Below, piece by piece: positions 3,068 to 45,464 of a DNA stretch of 64,000 nt. The notes under the pieces are model-generated. The model saw nothing but the letters and a program-made list of their open reading frames with translations. It did no database searches and was not told where the DNA came from. The translations under genes were made by a program, and so were the position numbers. Source of the DNA: Armatimonadota bacterium (GTDB taxonomy: Bacteria; Armatimonadota; Zipacnadia; Zipacnadales; UBA11051); the NCBI GenBank assembly GCA_013178155.1, contig JABLXH010000010.1:124001-188000 (forward strand). Direction: 5' to 3'. Positions within the stretch are counted from its first letter, which is position 1; every line of letters starts with the position of its first letter.

Positions 3068-5073
3068 CCGCACTCTGTCCGGAACTGAGGCTGTCGTGGC
3101 GCGTTGGCTATCACAACTACAACACGCCCGAGGCCCTGAACACGCTGGTCAGCTTCCTGGGCCAGTACCGTTCGGTGGTGGACGAGGTCTGCTTCTTTGA
3201 CACGATCACGCACCATCTCTACCTGCCCTGGGACGAGCTTCAGGACACCGCCAGCCTCATTGGCCGGGCCATGGCGGCAATGCGTGACCTGGGTGTACCC
3301 AGCGTCGGCATCAACGTGCTGTGCACCGTCGGCCACATAGACGAGGCCTGGGACTATGTACACCCCCTGCCCTTTCAGCCCATGGTCGGTCACGACGGTT
3401 CCGTGGCCCGGGGGTCCGGCTGTCCCAACGACCCGGCGCTGCGGCAGTATGTGTGGGACAAGTACCAGCTCATGGCGCGTCAGGGCCCGCACTTCATCTG
3501 GGTAGATGACGACATCCGCGCCAACCACCACACTGTCGCCTGGCCCTGCTTCTGTCCGCTCTGTCTGGACCTCTTCGCTCGGGACACGGGCCAGAGCTTC
3601 ACGCGGGAGGCCCTCGTGGCCGCCCTGAGCCTCCCTGATCGGGGAGACTTGCGCGAGGCCTGGATCGAGCAGAACGTCCGCAGCTACGAGACGCTCTTGG
3701 CCCACGTACGCGCCGCCATTGACAGTGTGGACCCCCAGATTGAGACCGGGCTGATGACAGCCGGTCCGGCGGGGACCACTTACGGCGGCTTCCGTCACGA
3801 TCGCTGGCTCACGGCGCTCCGCGCCACCAAGTCGCGCCCCGGCGGCGGCTTCTACACCGACGCGACCATCACCGCACTCTATGGCAAGAGCCTCGACGTG
3901 GGCTGGCAGCGTTCGGTCCTGCCGGAAGGCGTGCGCGAGTCAGTCTACGAGCTGGAAAACTTCCCCTACCAGGTGTTGAAGAAGTCAGTCTCCTCGGTGA
4001 TGAATGAGGCAACGCTCGCCCTGGCCCAGGGGCTCACCGGTGTAGCCTTCAACGCCCTGGGCATGTGGAACGCGCCACTGGATGACAAGCGCCCCCTGAT
4101 GAAGGCCATCGCACACCATCGGCCCCTCTGGGAACAGGTGGCTGGCTGGGCCCCCAACGTGCCGACGCGCGGTCTCTGGATCGCATGGACCCCTGGCCTC
4201 ATGGCCCGGCGGCGGGTGCTGGCCGGCGAGGACTGGTTCGCGCCCAGTGACGCCCACAGCTTCAGCAAGGCCGCCGTGCTCGGTGAGATCGGCCTGCCGC
4301 TGGCTGTGGATCCACCGGGCGAGGTGACGGTGCTCGTGGGCCGGGTGGTGGAGGCGTTTGCCGACGACGAACTGCGGCAGATGCTGTCCGGCGGCGTGCT
4401 CATGGATGCGGCCGCCGCCCAGGCTCTGGCGGATCGCGGCCTGGGAGACCTGACCGGAGTGCGGTTGGCGCAGGGCTACAACAACGGGGTAGTCGAGCGG
4501 TTCTCTGCCGACCCGCTCAACGGGGACAGTGCCGACCAGATCCGCGACGCCCGGATCGAGTTCTTCTCCCAGGGCCGGGAGCACGCCTGGGTGCTGGAAC
4601 CCCTCACCCCCAGCGGGCGTGTCCTGGCGCAGGTGGAGAGCTACTGGGGCCAGGTGCTCGGACCGTGTCTGACCGCGGCGGAGAACGAACTCGGCGGACG
4701 CGTGGCGGTCATGGGCTACGCGCCCTGGATGTTCCTGCACTCCACCGACAAGCGGGCGCAGCTACAGAACCTCACCGACTGGCTGAGCCGCGGCACTCTT
4801 CCCGTGCGGGTGCAGCAGGCCGTGCCAGTCATCCCGGTGGCGCGCCTGGTGGCCGACCGGACACGCGGGGTGGTGACACTGTTCAACTCCGGTCTGGACT
4901 GGCTGCCCGAGGTGACGGTAGAGGTGCGCGCCCCCCGGGTGCCCGTGTGCGAGCTGCGGCCGGGCTGCCGGCAGGAGGCGGCTGTGGAGAGCGTTGCAGG
5001 CGGCTGGCAGGTTCGGCTCCGCGACCTCCCGCCCTGGAGCACGGTCGTGCTGCTCATCGGCAGCGACATCTAG
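3064..5073 (+). CDS. Large TIM-barrel-like protein of unknown function, glycoside-hydrolase-like (669 aa)
   Basis: The ATG overlaps the TPR gene stop. There is no signal peptide, so it is probably cytoplasmic. The N-terminal half has alternating strand/helix blocks typical of a TIM barrel, an acidic strand end 'IWVDDDIRANHH' (about residues 145-156) and a 'CFCPLC' cysteine cluster (162-167) that could bind metal. This arrangement recurs in uncharacterised GH-like proteins of environmental bacteria. The middle (about 370-560) resembles a beta-galactosidase-type trimerisation or amidotransferase-like fold, and the C-terminus is a beta-sandwich. I cannot name a family. The paired aspartates are candidate catalytic or metal ligands. 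It is convergent with addA; the two stops overlap by 4 bp (5070-5073). Confidence 0.7.
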   Translation: MTALCPELRLSWRVGYHNYNTPEALNTLVSFLGQYRSVVDEVCFFDTITHHLYLPWDELQDTASLIGRAMAAMRDLGVPSVGINVLCTVGHIDEAWDYVHPLPFQPMVGHDGSVARGSGCPNDPALRQYVWDKYQLMARQGPHFIWVDDDIRANHHTVAWPCFCPLCLDLFARDTGQSFTREALVAALSLPDRGDLREAWIEQNVRSYETLLAHVRAAIDSVDPQIETGLMTAGPAGTTYGGFRHDRWLTALRATKSRPGGGFYTDATITALYGKSLDVGWQRSVLPEGVRESVYELENFPYQVLKKSVSSVMNEATLALAQGLTGVAFNALGMWNAPLDDKRPLMKAIAHHRPLWEQVAGWAPNVPTRGLWIAWTPGLMARRRVLAGEDWFAPSDAHSFSKAAVLGEIGLPLAVDPPGEVTVLVGRVVEAFADDELRQMLSGGVLMDAAAAQALADRGLGDLTGVRLAQGYNNGVVERFSADPLNGDSADQIRDARIEFFSQGREHAWVLEPLTPSGRVLAQVESYWGQVLGPCLTAAENELGGRVAVMGYAPWMFLHSTDKRAQLQNLTDWLSRGTLPVRVQQAVPVIPVARLVADRTRGVVTLFNSGLDWLPEVTVEVRAPRVPVCELRPGCRQEAAVESVAGGWQVRLRDLPPWSTVVLLIGSDI

Positions 5074-30745: not shown

Positions 30746-30921
30746 CGGCGGCTCCCGTGGGTGTGCGGTACTCAGCATCTGGCCGGCAGGCGCAGACCTA
30801 TTCGCTGGTTGTAGCCTGGGACCTGCTAAAACTATTTTGCTGATATGCTACATAGATATTGAACAACCGCCATCGCCCCCCGTCTCTTGAAGTGCGGAGC
30901 TTAGAAGGGAGGCCGATCCCC

Positions 30922-31734
30922 ATGAAGACACGCAGGATGCTATGGATTTTCGTCGTCGCGCTCGCCCTGGCGGTGGCCGCAGTAACCGTCGGTGCCGCCG
31001 GACAGGGAACGTGTGGAAGTGGCTGTAGCGGGATGAAAGCTCAGGAGAGCTGTGGCGCCGCAGGTGGCCCCATGGCCCAGGCGGTTGCCCATCAGGCTGA
31101 AAGGCCTTTGGACCGGGGCAGCGTCGCGCTCATCAGTCGCACCTGCCCACAGTCAGGCAAGACCATGCTGGTCCTGGCCGTCAGGTCCACCGGCGGACAG
31201 CCAGACCCGGCAGCGCGGCTGACGGCGCTCGTGGACCGCAGACCAGTCGCCCTGGTCCAGGCCAAGCCCGGCATCTACCGGGGCCAGGTGGCGTTGAGCC
31301 GCGGGACACACCAGCTCGTAGTGCATGTGGCCCAAGGCGTTTCTGAGTCCTCCGTGGGTTTCCCGCTGGCCGTCAGCACCGCCCCAGCGGTTGGCCCCTG
31401 CGCCAATGCGGACTGCCGGTGTGGAGCGAACTGCCAGTGCGGTGCGGACTGCAAGTGTGGTACGGGGGCCTGCCGGTGCGGCGAGAGCTGCCAGTGTGGC
31501 GCGGACTGCAAGTGCTCGGCGGGCCAGTGCGCCAACACGGCCTGCGCATGTGGTGAGAATTGCGCGTGTGGCCCCAACTGCAACTGCGCAGAGGGACAGT
31601 GCACCTGCCCTGCCGGTGGCCAGTGCCAGTGCGGTGAGACCTGCCGGTGCGGTGCAAGCGGCGGGCCTGCCAGCCCACAGGCCTATAGTGGTGGCTGCAC
31701 ACCCGACGGCCGTCCAGAGGATTGCCCGCGGTAA
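30922..31734 (+). CDS. Exported protein with metallothionein-like cysteine-repeat tail (270 aa)
   Basis: ATG 30922 follows AAGGGAGG. The signal peptide (about 1-26, 'MLWIFVVALALAVAAVTVGA') is followed by a short Cys patch (GTCGSGCSG) and an Ig/FixH-like domain of about 90 residues (61-152). The tail, residues 160-243, has 26 cysteines in repeats of the form C-x-C-G-x-x-C, for example 'CQCGADCKCG' and 'CRCGESC'. Such density suggests clusters of soft metal ions (Zn, Cu, Cd) or heavy disulfide cross-linking. Classical bacterial metallothioneins are cytosolic and about 55 aa, so this would be an exported variant. No metal transporter or regulator gene is adjacent. The function is inferred from composition only. 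Confidence 0.8.
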   Translation: MKTRRMLWIFVVALALAVAAVTVGAAGQGTCGSGCSGMKAQESCGAAGGPMAQAVAHQAERPLDRGSVALISRTCPQSGKTMLVLAVRSTGGQPDPAARLTALVDRRPVALVQAKPGIYRGQVALSRGTHQLVVHVAQGVSESSVGFPLAVSTAPAVGPCANADCRCGANCQCGADCKCGTGACRCGESCQCGADCKCSAGQCANTACACGENCACGPNCNCAEGQCTCPAGGQCQCGETCRCGASGGPASPQAYSGGCTPDGRPEDCPR

Positions 31735-31792: not shown

Positions 31793-31819
31793 GGGGCCAC
31801 GGCAGTGATGCCGTGGCCC
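31793..31819. terminator. Hairpin between convergent genes, probable bidirectional terminator
   Basis: GGGCCACGGCA and TGCCGTGGCCC form an 11-bp perfect stem around a GTGA loop. It lies between the cysteine-repeat gene (+, stop 31734) and the SIS gene (-, stop 31844). The minus side is followed by CTTTG, a weak T-run, and the plus side by TGATTC. Confidence 0.55.
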
Positions 31820-31843
31820 TGATTCTCCACCCGGCAGCAACCG

Positions 31844-35992: not shown

Positions 35993-36574
35993 ATGCCCAC
36001 TTACGAATACGGGCGCATCAAGGTGCTGGCCGACAACCTAGCGGCGGCGGGAGTGTCGGTGGAGATCGCGGCGCGCATCCTGGAGGGTGGCGAGGACGTC
36101 CGCAAGGACGCCCGCCCCGAGCGCAAGGCGCGGTGGATGGCCCAGGCCATGCGGCGCATGGACGAGCTGTTGGACGCCGACACCCGCCACGCCGTCCGCG
36201 AGGGCTGCGCCTGCTGCCTGGGCGGCGAGCGCCTGAAGCTCTCCAAGGCCATCGCCCGCGACCATGACAACCTCGCCGACCGCCTCCGCGCCGCCAACGC
36301 AACGCCCTCTGTCTTCGGCCACAGCGTCACCGAGACCGGCGACGGGCGGATCCTGGTCTCCTTCTTTCCGGAGGGCCTCGAGCACTACCGCTGCGTCTGC
36401 CTGCCCAAGGCCGAGGGCCCGGTTTCGATCACGTACTGCTACTGTTGCGGCGGGCACGTCAAGCACCACCTGCAGACCGCCCTGGGCCGTAAGCTGGAGA
36501 TGACCGTCCGCTCCTCCGCCCTCGCCAGCGCCGGCAAGGAGCCGTGCACGTTCCTGTTGAAGGTGGTGGAGTAG
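35993..36574 (+). CDS. Cysteine-rich putative metal-binding protein (193 aa, possibly DUF6144-like)
   Basis: Soluble protein with four Cys clusters: 'EGCACCLGG' (about 70), 'YRCVCLPKAEG' (about 131), 'TYCYCCGGHVKHHL' (about 148) and 'KEPCTF' near the C-terminus. The last two resemble the C-terminal Cys/His arrangement of small 4-vinyl-reductase-like or DUF6144 proteins. I am not certain of either. The N-terminus is helical ('IKVLADNLAAAGVSVEIAAR'). A metal or Fe-S site is likely. It is cotranscribed with the MttB-like and cellulase-like genes. Its role is unknown. Confidence 0.6.
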   Translation: MPTYEYGRIKVLADNLAAAGVSVEIAARILEGGEDVRKDARPERKARWMAQAMRRMDELLDADTRHAVREGCACCLGGERLKLSKAIARDHDNLADRLRAANATPSVFGHSVTETGDGRILVSFFPEGLEHYRCVCLPKAEGPVSITYCYCCGGHVKHHLQTALGRKLEMTVRSSALASAGKEPCTFLLKVVE

Positions 36575-39922: not shown

Positions 39923-40894
39923 ATGCCGAACCCGAGACCTGACGACCTCCGACATCTCTACCGTCTCATGGTCACCATCCGCCGGTTCGAGGAGGTGGCG
40001 ACCGAACGGTACCTCGCCGCCGGCCGGGCCGGGCAGTTCATGGGCGCCCTGCACACCTACGTCGGCGAGGAAGCCATCGCGGTCGGGGTCTGTAGCCTCC
40101 TGCGCGAGGATGACTTTGTTATCAGCACCCACCGCGGCCACGGCCACTGTCTGGCCAAGGGCGCCGATCCGGGCCCGATGCTCGCGGAGCTGGCCGGGCG
40201 CGAGACCGGCTACAGTCGCGGCTACGGCGGCTCCATGCACATTTTCGCCCCGGAGCTGGGCCTGCTGGGCGGCAACGGCATCGTCGGTGGGGGCATGCCA
40301 TTGGCTGCCGGAGCAGCCTTCACGGCCCAGTACACCGGCACCGACCGCGTGGCCGTCTGCTTTTTCGGCGACGGTGCCTCCAAGCAGGGCACCTTCCACG
40401 AGAGCTTCAACCTCTGCGCCCTCTGGGACCTGCCGGCTCTCTTCGTGTGCGAGAACAACTGCTACGCCGCGACCACGCCGGTGAAGGACTCCTGCCCCAT
40501 CGTGGACATCGCGGAAATGGCCCACGGCTATGGCTGTCCTGGCGTGGTGGTGGATGGCAACAACGTCCTGGCTGTCCGGGCAGTGGCCGAGGAGGCCATC
40601 GCGCGGGCACGGGCCGGGCGCGGACCGACGCTCATCGAGGCCAAGACCTACCGCATGAAGCCGCACTGCATGGTCATCCGCGAGACCCGGGACCAGTGCG
40701 AACTGGACGAATGGGCGGAGAAGGATCCGATCCAGCGGTTCGAGGCCTACCTGCTGGAGGAAGGCGGTCTGGCGGCGGAGGAGTTGCGAGGCATCCGTGA
40801 CGAAGTTGACACCGTCCTGGCTGCGGCCGCCGCCTTCGCGGACGCCAGCCCCTGGCCTGACCCGGCACGGGTGATGGAGGTCCTCTGGGCATGA
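39923..40894 (+). CDS. 2-oxoacid/acetoin dehydrogenase E1 component, alpha subunit
   Basis: 323 aa. Thiamine diphosphate motif 'FFGDGASKQGTFHESFNLC' ending 'VCENNCYA' is intact, and 'STHRGHGHCLAKGAD' and 'YGGSMHIF' are typical of AcoA/PdhA. It forms a 2-alpha/2-beta heterotetramer with a beta subunit. The nearest is at 26521. ATG 39923 follows GGAGG, and the stop overlaps the glycyl radical enzyme gene (ATGA). An E1 alpha subunit without its beta next door, coupled to a GRE, is unusual; no E2 gene is in the window. Confidence 0.93.
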   Translation: MPNPRPDDLRHLYRLMVTIRRFEEVATERYLAAGRAGQFMGALHTYVGEEAIAVGVCSLLREDDFVISTHRGHGHCLAKGADPGPMLAELAGRETGYSRGYGGSMHIFAPELGLLGGNGIVGGGMPLAAGAAFTAQYTGTDRVAVCFFGDGASKQGTFHESFNLCALWDLPALFVCENNCYAATTPVKDSCPIVDIAEMAHGYGCPGVVVDGNNVLAVRAVAEEAIARARAGRGPTLIEAKTYRMKPHCMVIRETRDQCELDEWAEKDPIQRFEAYLLEEGGLAAEELRGIRDEVDTVLAAAAAFADASPWPDPARVMEVLWA

Positions 40895-43050
40895 CCTCAC
40901 GCCTGCAAGCTTATCACGCCACTGCCCAGCGGCGTGCCTGGGAGCCCCATGAAAGCCCCAAGGAGGCCAATCTCACCGAGGCCTTCTTCGAGGTCTATGC
41001 CGACCTGCCCCTGGCGGAGCGGCAGGCGCGGAGCGTGGTCTACGCCCTGCTGCGTGAGCCGATCCACTACGACCCTGACGAGACCATCGCCGGGATGATC
41101 TTCCAGGCCTGCCCGGGTTCGGGCGACCCGCTGCTCTTCGGCGGCGCTGACCCCCGCTGGGCCGAGTTCTGCGCCAACGGCATGGGCGCGCGGTGGGTCG
41201 CCGAGCGCCTGCCGGAACATGAGCGGTACGGCAAGCACTTCAGCGACGGCGCCGCGCCGGGGCACATCGGCTGGGACTGGCGGCTGGTGCTGGAGCTGGG
41301 CCTGACCGGCCTGCGGCAGCGGTATGCCGAGGCCGAGGCGGCAGCCACGGACGAAGCCGCCCGCGAGTTCCATCGTTGCGTCGGCATCGCCCTGGAGGGA
41401 GCGATGGACTTCGCCCGCCGCCTGGCCGAGGGGGCGTCGGAAGAGCTGCGGCCCCTCTGCGAGAAGGTGCCGCTTCATCCCGCCGAGAGCTTCCGCGAGG
41501 CCGTACAGGCCTTCTGGACCCAGTACCTGGCGGTCATGTTCGAGAACCCCTATGGCGGCAACGGACCAGGGCTTCTGGACCGCTTCCTGTGGCCGTACCT
41601 GGAGCGTGATCTGCAGGCGGGGCGCCTTACCCTCGATGAGGCGCGGGACATCGTCACCGAACTGCTCATCAAGCTTGATGAGCGCATCTGTCCGGCGGAC
41701 GGCTGGGTGGAGGCGATCTGCGTCGGCGGACGCACCGCTGACGGCGGCGGGGCAGAGAACCCACTCTCCCGCCTGATCCTGGAGCAGATCATTGCCCTCA
41801 ACCAGACCCATCCGTCGGTCTATGTGCGCCTGCGCGATGACGCCCCCGAGGACTTCCGCGAGCTGACGAGCCGCTATCTGCTGCAGGGGGGCAACCGCGC
41901 CCAGGTCTACTCCGATGACCGTGTGATCGAGGCGCTGGTGGAGGCCGGGCACAGCTACGAGGACGCGTGCGAATGGATGGCCGGCGGCTGCATGGAGGTC
42001 TCCAGCCAGGGCCGCAACTGCGACTTCAACTTCACCTTCGTACACAACATCGCCTGGACCCTGGAAGCCGTCTTGCACGGGGGCATCCTGCCCATGACCG
42101 GCCAGGGTGTGGCCCCGCTGACGGCGACGCTGGCTGACTACCCGACCTTCGAGGCGCTCTGGGAGGCCTTCGAGGCCGAGTTGCGGCGCGAGCTGGACCT
42201 GGTCTTCCGCCGCCTGGACATCTATCTTGCGGCCTACGCCAGGTACCGGCCGCAGTTCCTGATCTCGTCCATGGTCCACGACTGCCTGGAGCGCGGTCGG
42301 ACCATGAACGACGGCGGCGCGCGCTACGCCGATTTCAGCGGCAGCGGCCTGGCCGTCCCAAACGTGGGTGATAGCCTCCTGGCCGTCCGCGAGGCGGTCT
42401 ACGAGCGGGGGTTGTGCTCGGCGGAGGAGCTACTGGCGGCGCTGCAAGCCAACTTCGAGGGCTACGAGGGCCTGCGGCGACAACTGCTCAACCTGCCCAA
42501 GTTCGGCCAGGATGACCCGGATGCCGATGCCATGGTCAACCGTGTGCTCGGGGTCTACACCTCCGCCGCCAACAGCCATGTCACGCCCCACGGCGGGCGG
42601 GTGCGGCCCCTGGTTCTGGGTTTCGTCTGGGTGGCGCAGTTGGGACTGCAGACCGGCGCCACGCCCGATGGACGCAAGGCAGGAGAGCCGCTGGCGCACG
42701 GCCTGGCGCCCCAGTGCAGCAGTGCGACTCTCGGGCTGTCCGCAGCTATCAACTCGGCCACCCGCCTGGACCTGCGCCCCGTCGGCGGGGGGGCCAGTAT
42801 GATGTTCGACCTCGACCCGGCCTGGGCCACGCCCGGAATCGTGGATGCCACGCTGCGGACCTTCGCCCAGCGCGGGGGGCACATCTTCCAGGGGAACACC
42901 GAGGACCTCAGTGACCTCCAGGCAGCCCTGGAGCACCCCGAACGCTACCGTCACCTGATGGTGCGTGTCGGCGGCTACTCTGCCCGCTTCGTGAACCTGT
43001 CGCCGGAACTACAGGCCGAGATCATGCAGCGCCGGCGCTACAACAGTTGA
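40891..43050 (+). CDS. Glycyl radical enzyme of the dehydratase/lyase type (719 aa)
   Basis: Pyruvate formate-lyase superfamily. The thiyl site reads 'GGCMEVSSQGRN' (Cys367, Glu369). The single Cys followed by x-Glu is the pattern of glycerol/diol dehydratases, choline lyase and related eliminases, not of pyruvate formate-lyase, which has Cys-Cys. The C-terminal radical loop 'RVGGYSARF' supplies Gly695. Length is within the 700-850 aa range. The ATG overlaps the E1-alpha stop, so both are made together. It needs a radical-SAM activase, and none is in the window. The enzyme is oxygen-sensitive, implying anaerobic growth phases. The substrate is unknown. Confidence 0.9.
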   Translation: MTSRLQAYHATAQRRAWEPHESPKEANLTEAFFEVYADLPLAERQARSVVYALLREPIHYDPDETIAGMIFQACPGSGDPLLFGGADPRWAEFCANGMGARWVAERLPEHERYGKHFSDGAAPGHIGWDWRLVLELGLTGLRQRYAEAEAAATDEAAREFHRCVGIALEGAMDFARRLAEGASEELRPLCEKVPLHPAESFREAVQAFWTQYLAVMFENPYGGNGPGLLDRFLWPYLERDLQAGRLTLDEARDIVTELLIKLDERICPADGWVEAICVGGRTADGGGAENPLSRLILEQIIALNQTHPSVYVRLRDDAPEDFRELTSRYLLQGGNRAQVYSDDRVIEALVEAGHSYEDACEWMAGGCMEVSSQGRNCDFNFTFVHNIAWTLEAVLHGGILPMTGQGVAPLTATLADYPTFEALWEAFEAELRRELDLVFRRLDIYLAAYARYRPQFLISSMVHDCLERGRTMNDGGARYADFSGSGLAVPNVGDSLLAVREAVYERGLCSAEELLAALQANFEGYEGLRRQLLNLPKFGQDDPDADAMVNRVLGVYTSAANSHVTPHGGRVRPLVLGFVWVAQLGLQTGATPDGRKAGEPLAHGLAPQCSSATLGLSAAINSATRLDLRPVGGGASMMFDLDPAWATPGIVDATLRTFAQRGGHIFQGNTEDLSDLQAALEHPERYRHLMVRVGGYSARFVNLSPELQAEIMQRRRYNS

Positions 43051-44803: not shown

Positions 44804-45464
44804 CTAACCGCCCAGGCGCTTGACGGCGGCGCGGGCTTCCCTCGTCTTCGCGCGGTCCTTGGACACGGCGAGGAACTGGTTGAAGGTCTTCACGGCCTCC
44901 GCCTTCATCGCAGTGTCGCCGTTGGTGCTGCCCCGCTCCGCCTGGATCCAGGCCTTGCCCCAAAGGGCCAAAGCATCCTTGGGGTTGCTCTGCAGGTTGG
45001 CCTCAAAGATCGCGAGAGCCTGATCGTAGTTGCCCGAATGTTTGACGTTGATCCCATCCTTGGCCGTTGCACCGGGCGGCGCTGTCGTTGCGCCTGCCGC
45101 CGGAGCAGCCCCGGGAGCCTCTCCGGCCGGAGCAGCACCCGTGCCGCCCCCGGCAGCCGCTCCTGGTGCTCCACCACCGGGACCACCCATGCCGCCGCCG
45201 GGAGGTCCACCCATCCCACCACCGGGACCACCCATGCCGCCGCCGGGAGGTCCACCCATCCCACCACCGGGACCACCCATGCCGCCGCCGGGAGGTCCGC
45301 CCATCCCACCACCAGGTCCACCCATCCCAACCACCGGGACCACCCATGCCGGGGCCGCCAGCCGCGGTCTTGTCGGCGTCTTTCTTCCCGCACCCGCACA
45401 CGGCAATGGCCGCCACCATGGTCGCTACGACGATGCAGATAAGGAGCAGTCTCGAGGGCCTCAA
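44804..45464 (-). pseudogene. Lipoprotein with Gly/Met/Pro repeat and TPR tail, interrupted by a 1-base insertion
   Basis: A TTG start at 45464 follows GAAGGAGAG and encodes RPSRLLLICIVVATMVAAIAVCGCGKK, a lipobox-type leader (...IAVC/GC). The reading frame then enters a tandem Gly/Met/Pro repeat and breaks at about 45,330, where 'CCAACCACC' replaces 'CCACCACC' (plus strand). Deleting one base restores a frame through MGGPGG repeats into a helical TPR-like C-terminus ('NYDQALAIFEANLQSNPKDALALWGKAW') that stops at 44804, giving about 219 aa. Homopolymer-like repeat context makes a sequencing or assembly error likely; phase variation is the alternative. It lies 138 bp downstream of the polyprenyl synthase gene. 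Confidence 0.65.
45171..45352. repeat. 45-bp tandem repeat encoding Gly/Met/Pro units
   Basis: About four copies at exactly 45-bp spacing ('accgggaccacccatg' recurs at 45176, 45221 and 45266), each encoding 15 residues of the type GMGGPPGGGMGGPGG on the minus strand. The fourth copy has the extra base that breaks the lipoprotein frame. Confidence 0.9.

Follow-up and report, generated by a model that had tools for sequence, protein, structure and literature searches.

Can a metallothionein-like region work outside the cytosol, as the tail of an exported protein? This question is raised by one gene in the window, that is, the whole stretch of 64,000 nucleotides of Armatimonadota DNA analysed here. 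Metallothioneins are described as cytosolic, for example in PMC8790569. The first-pass annotation had seen in this gene a signal peptide, a beta domain and a tail of 26 regularly spaced cysteines, and had offered three readings of the product: a metal sponge, a redox buffer or a cross-linked surface protein.

Gene and Protein Layout

The features of the locus are as follows:

30905..30912 (+): Shine-Dalgarno-like AAGGGAGG, 9 nt before the start codon, read from the sequence
30922..31734 (+): complete coding sequence of the putatively exported Cys-array protein, 270 aa, ATG at 30922, stop codon ending at 31734
30922..30996 (+): predicted Sec signal peptide, residues 1-25, MKTRRMLWIFVVALALAVAAVTVGA followed by A (cleavage VGA/A), read by eye
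30997..31101 (+): linker, residues 26-60, with three Cys (CGSGC...C)
31102..31389 (+): beta-rich domain, residues ~61-156, with the single Cys75, from low-confidence models
31399..31653 (+): Cys array, residues 160-244, with 26 Cys, 12 CxC and 9 CxCG
31654..31731 (+): C-terminal residues 245-270, with two more Cys
31793..31820 (no strand): 12-bp hairpin between convergent genes, a possible shared terminator, with no T run

The frame of the coding sequence is the only one open throughout, the other frames holding 2-6 stops each; it also gives the best synonymous-codon score, yet this score is 0.03, compared to 0.06-0.19 in 24 out of 24 neighbours. The gene is apparently monocistronic, as its flanking genes, encoding a GNAT and a SIS-domain protein, both lie on the opposite (−) strand, and the hairpin between the convergent stops was graded strong. 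No regulator-like repeats were found in the 147-bp region upstream, and promoter and inverted-repeat scans gave no result. As the first-pass annotation had noted, no metal-handling or metal-resistance gene lies nearby: none was found in a Pfam scan of the 29 other main ORFs of the window. The window covers C2:124001-188000 of a 5.53-Mb assembly. The whole genome contains no member of the CsoR family, and its two HMA domains are both located outside the window, at C190 and at C2:41800 (about 82 kb before it). Elsewhere in the window, a pyruvate formate lyase-like glycyl radical enzyme (40891-43050, +) is encoded between genes for an E1 dehydrogenase and a BNR-repeat protein, and a tandem array with a 45-bp period, the copies of which match at 97% (TRF), is found at 45171-45347.

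The protein contains 32 Cys in total, at positions 31, 35, 44 and 75, then 26 within residues 160-243, then 259 and 268. With 11.9% Cys, against a mean of 1.6% for the other ORFs of the window, it comes top among the tabulated ORFs; the second richest (4.7%) is a DUF6144 protein at 35993-36574 (+). Signal peptides, here and in other lineages, were judged by eye. In a single-sequence AlphaFold model, a helix covers residues 3-22 (pLDDT 71-76), and this hydrophobic stretch could also be an uncleaved membrane anchor instead of a cleaved signal peptide. The beta domain proposed earlier is visible in both AlphaFold models as five to six strands (residues 68-136), although these single-sequence models are poor (pLDDT 45); it has no Pfam or PDB match, and Foldseek on the same models gave nothing usable. 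No part of the whole protein scores meaningfully in Pfam or NCBIfam.

Composition of the Cysteine Tail

The tail (26 Cys out of 85 residues) is devoid of CC, CxxC, aromatic residues and His, and the gaps between its cysteines are nearly all 2, 4 or 5, in a 2-4-2-4 or 2-5 pattern. The probability of finding at least 26 Cys in 85 residues is about 7e-26 with the other ORFs of the window as background (1.6% Cys). Among 10,000 shuffles of the tail, at least 12 CxC occurred in 0.25%, no CC in 0.01% and at least 9 CxCG in none; in DNA, the CxCGxxCxCG motif is found five times in the window for 0.01 expected. The ORF, with its predicted signal peptide and regular 26-Cys tail, is confirmed as first annotated, its CxC and CxCG statistics being far from chance.

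At 31408-31514 the DNA repeats in tandem with a period of 18, which brings in another explanation, in which an 18-nt unit recently expanded in an orphan exported gene without any selected function; the codon score below that of the neighbours and the lack of relatives (see below) go in the same direction. The copies are, however, just 68% alike in DNA while Cys and Gly are kept, and divergence among the nine CxCG units is highest at the third codon position (0.38 vs. 0.25 and 0.31), which lends weak support to selection acting on the protein. Neither 85 residues without any CC, CxxC or aromatic nor the recurrence of arrays of the same kind in other lineages fits such an expansion, which we consider improbable.

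Search for Relatives of the Gene

The gene is an orphan. The 158 residues preceding the tail gave noise-level matches only in the 291 genomes of the phylum, the full-length protein has no relative in 40 related genomes (noise only), and none was found in viral contigs and plasmids. Having no orthologue in the 291 genomes, the gene has neither a conservation pattern nor a conserved context to offer.

Tail and Metallothionein Families

A search with the tail alone, as the first-pass annotation had suggested, returned metallothionein families exclusively (Metallothio_6, Metallothio_5 and Metallothio_2) up to E 10, but all of them below threshold: the match to Metallothio_6 has an E value of 0.006-0.013, depending on where the tail is cut, and the best Pfam score is 17.4 bits for a curated cut-off of 23. 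As a control, five full shuffles of the tail and four shuffles keeping the Cys positions gave no Pfam match. Against the PDB, the best match of the tail is the sea-urchin metallothionein 1qjl (E 0.45), and a profile built from seven bacterial arrays (A1) finds the Cd-metallothionein 6qk5 first (E 0.13), both below significance. These sequence matches, weak as they are, all point one way, toward metallothioneins.

The tail has the general features of a metallothionein (about 30% Cys, CxC motifs, no aromatics), but the protein is not small (under about 10 kDa) and stand-alone, being 270 aa long with a signal peptide and a second domain; nor does the SmtA/BmtA family appear among its Pfam or NCBIfam hits. 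Its size, its location and its curated scores do not allow it to be filed under any metallothionein family; by analogy, it most likely works like one.

Comparable Arrays in Other Lineages

Searching for such arrays at the DNA level was not straightforward, as the collection-wide pattern scan gave mostly CGCGCG-type microsatellites read as Cys, and most translated hits were discarded. Apparent arrays in three genomes (G001, G022 and G287) were rejected as microsatellites or as ORFs that are not coding-like. In 392 Planctomycetota genomes, a stricter pattern requiring A or C first in the x codon retrieved a single, microsatellite-like genome.

Exported CxCG arrays are rare but recurrent across lineages. 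In the phylum of the window organism, one genome (G183) encodes an exported array protein of 72 aa, and two others (G173 and G174) encode proteins made of a signal peptide, a CxCG array, a Pfam-confirmed SLH domain and a long porin-like remainder:

L179:4484-6694 (+): SLH-domain porin-like CxCG protein
L180:4322-6586 (counted on the − strand): SLH-domain porin-like CxCG protein

Outside the phylum, a Phycisphaerales protein (L117) has a signal peptide and an array followed by LVIVD repeats, and an exported array is found in Parachlamydiales (L026). The fused, exported form had at first been called unusual. Exported CxCG arrays are rare, but they recur, and there is precedent, in Csp1 and bufferins, for Cys-based binding of copper outside the cytoplasm.

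Arrays in small proteins that lack a signal peptide are found at L027 and L078 and, in the same phylum, in G169 and G170. The proteins of the latter two are 51-54 aa long (L178, near 4500-4680, +, in G170; L182, near 4600-4888, −, in G169), both encoded next to a zinc-type alcohol dehydrogenase gene. No metal-resistance genes are among the neighbours of the array genes of G183, G169 and G170. We also came across a clostridial ORF with an Asp-rich C-terminal CxCGDDCDCGDDC array (L122:1-399, +) and a transketolase-like ORF ending in a Cys/Asp/Glu tail, CCCEDDCCCEDDCDCGCGE (L189, 1945-4065 counted on the − strand).

These arrays bear on the main rival explanation, a disulfide-linked envelope or surface protein whose tail would cross-link to itself or to other proteins and stiffen the envelope. 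The protein is presumably exported to an oxidising compartment, and its Cys number is even, whether one counts the tail (26) or the whole protein (32). The spacing, with CxC throughout and neither CC nor CxxC, is on the contrary metallothionein-like, and small proteins that lack a signal peptide carry the same array; these would sit in reducing surroundings, in which one does not expect disulfides.

Chlamydiota Family and Its Metal-Gene Context

CxCG arrays were found in 6 out of 151 Chlamydiota genomes. The loci yield nine exported copies, which make up an unnamed family of environmental Chlamydiota:

L233:4010-4240: exported CxCG gene; P1B-type ATPase (HMBD) in the locus
L235:4056-4286: exported CxCG gene; adjoining CsoR-family repressor and partial P1B-type ATPase, near the edge
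L249:5646-5876: exported CxCG gene; neither repressor nor ATPase within the stretch examined
L250:5776-6021: exported CxCG gene; adjoining repressor and P1B-type ATPase (HMBD)
L251:5812-6039: exported CxCG gene; adjoining repressor and P1B-type ATPase (HMBD)
L252:5947-6180: exported CxCG gene; adjoining repressor
L253:3574-3789: exported CxCG gene; neither within the stretch examined
L254:5662-6048: exported CxCG gene; neither within the stretch examined
L255:10134-10364: exported CxCG gene; adjoining repressor

The encoded proteins are mostly about 75 aa long and share a CxCxxCxC...CGC block; most of their Cys are conserved while much of the remaining sequence is variable. The exported array gene is often paired with a gene for a single-TM protein, at the end of which there is again a CxCG array. 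In five of the nine loci, the array gene adjoins that of a CsoR-family repressor (PF02583, E 1e-24 to 1e-26); a P1B-type ATPase is present in four, and six have one or both; DUF2933 proteins are found in two. The repressor of L235 carries Cys...His-x3-Cys, a motif shared with the copper sensor CsoR. A role of exported CxCG arrays in metal handling finds its strongest evidence in this CsoR/P1B-ATPase context. In the open-access literature, no article joins Chlamydiae with metallothionein and “cysteine-rich”, most subscription journals being outside the scope of this search.

When the profile of the nine Chlamydiota proteins was compared to the window protein using hhalign, the probability was 97.3% (E 2e-11), falling to 0.5% with a shuffled tail. 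One has to keep in mind that the array is repetitive, so that this 97% match reflects a shared motif and not shared descent; the similarity between the two may be due to convergence. Both start with a signal peptide (by eye for the window protein) followed by a CxCG array, but it is the array that carries the match, the beta domain being without counterpart, and neither a CsoR repressor nor an HMBD P1B ATPase adjoins the window gene.

The same family cuts both ways for the disulfide explanation. The Chlamydiota envelope is known for disulfide cross-linking, and the Cys-rich outer-membrane proteins of Chlamydia stiffen it in this way, so that several exported relatives of the array in this very phylum speak for cross-linking; their genes nevertheless adjoin metal regulators and metal ATPases. 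All in all, we hold a disulfide-linked surface protein to be unlikely, though it is the main rival.

Proposed Role

Our preferred reading, to which we give a probability of roughly 0.6, is an exported, metallothionein-like metal trap with metal binding as its main role. The protein would be exported by the Sec pathway, carrying its metallothionein-like metal-thiolate region as a C-terminal tail, and the beta-rich domain may place or hold it in the envelope. The 26 regularly spaced tail Cys would bind several soft metal ions in clusters via their CxC pairs; judging from metallothioneins, the capacity could be about 8-9 divalent ions or, for Cu(I), upward of a dozen. In this way, metal would be buffered or trapped by the protein outside the cytosol, Cu(I) being the best candidate; that copper in particular is the trapped metal is perhaps the case, and we put it forward tentatively. 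Among the three readings initially offered, the metal sponge is the best supported, through the sub-threshold matches led by metallothioneins and through the Chlamydiota CsoR/ATPase loci, even if the window gene itself has neither metal genes nearby nor an orthologue. Since metal genes are lacking in the vicinity, CsoR is absent from the genome and the HMA domains lie elsewhere, the proposed function is carried over on the strength of the kind of tail and of analogy; neither orthology nor context supplies it. As a rule, the envelope is oxidising and favours disulfides, which counts against a metal trap.

The redox reading, a thiol buffer or oxidant sink in the envelope for which metal binding is incidental, draws on the high thiol density and on the precedent of the bacterial metallothionein PmtA, reported on the cell surface and protecting from oxidative stress (PMC11237414). 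The tail nonetheless lacks the CxxC motif, no reductase-like partner was noted beside the gene, and array relatives associate with metal genes, all of which makes this reading quite improbable. A bufferin-like precursor, whose Cys would be turned into thiooxazoles by an MNIO enzyme, comes to mind as bufferins are MNIO-modified Cys peptides belonging to known copper-chelating peptide families, a subset of them with lipoprotein signals (PMC12636315). MNIO (PF05114), however, has no match in the assembly (completeness 95.6%), while 2 out of 14 control genomes match, and the protein has no family match; judging by the assembly, we are not dealing with a bufferin, and we give this possibility very little credit.

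More broadly, extracytoplasmic metallothioneins may form a real, unnamed bacterial class, in which CxCG arrays would repeatedly have been attached to signal peptides and unrelated envelope proteins (the beta domain here, SLH in G173 and G174, LVIVD in L117) and would serve to trap copper, with CsoR-type control in the case of Chlamydiota; we would give this proposal somewhat less than even odds. The idea becomes testable through the Chlamydiota loci, where a CsoR-family repressor and a P1B ATPase are linked to an exported Cys array.

Comparison with Known Systems

Like the CxCG metallothioneins (1qjl, 6qk5, Metallothio_6, _2 and _5), the tail is about 30% Cys, with Gly after its CxC pairs and no aromatics or His; those proteins are small and stand-alone, whereas the window protein (270 aa, putatively exported, fused to a beta domain) scores below curated cut-offs. 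Metallothioneins of the SmtA/BmtA/PmtA type resemble the tail in their Cys-rich make-up, which is metal-binding in their case, and PmtA has been detected on the cell surface (PMC11237414), but this type gives no Pfam match to the tail; Pseudomonas metallothioneins contain His and have the same Cys pattern as those of cyanobacteria (PMC7387436). The exported Chlamydiota proteins have the same succession of signal peptide and CxCG array, but are mostly about 75 aa long and mostly encoded in CsoR/P1B-ATPase loci, while the window gene encodes a beta domain and lacks this context.

PcoB, an envelope protein with a low-complexity metal-binding arm (PMC12509749), is the closest analogue of the SLH-domain proteins of G173 and G174, although its arm is disordered, N-terminal and His/Met-rich instead of a Cys array; PcoB is an outer-membrane channel, whereas the window protein has no barrel. 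Csp1 and Csp2 are exported, contain many Cys and store Cu(I) (PMC5171941), and the window protein is like them in its many Cys and predicted export. The Csp cysteines lie inside a four-helix bundle behind Tat-type signals, in contrast to the window protein, where the CxC tail follows a Sec-like signal and a beta domain; with no family match and a tail modelled without helix (low-confidence model), it is not recognisably a Csp. A recurring exported, domain-fused form of metallothionein would give the bacterial envelope a further means of buffering metal, beside Csp1 and bufferins.
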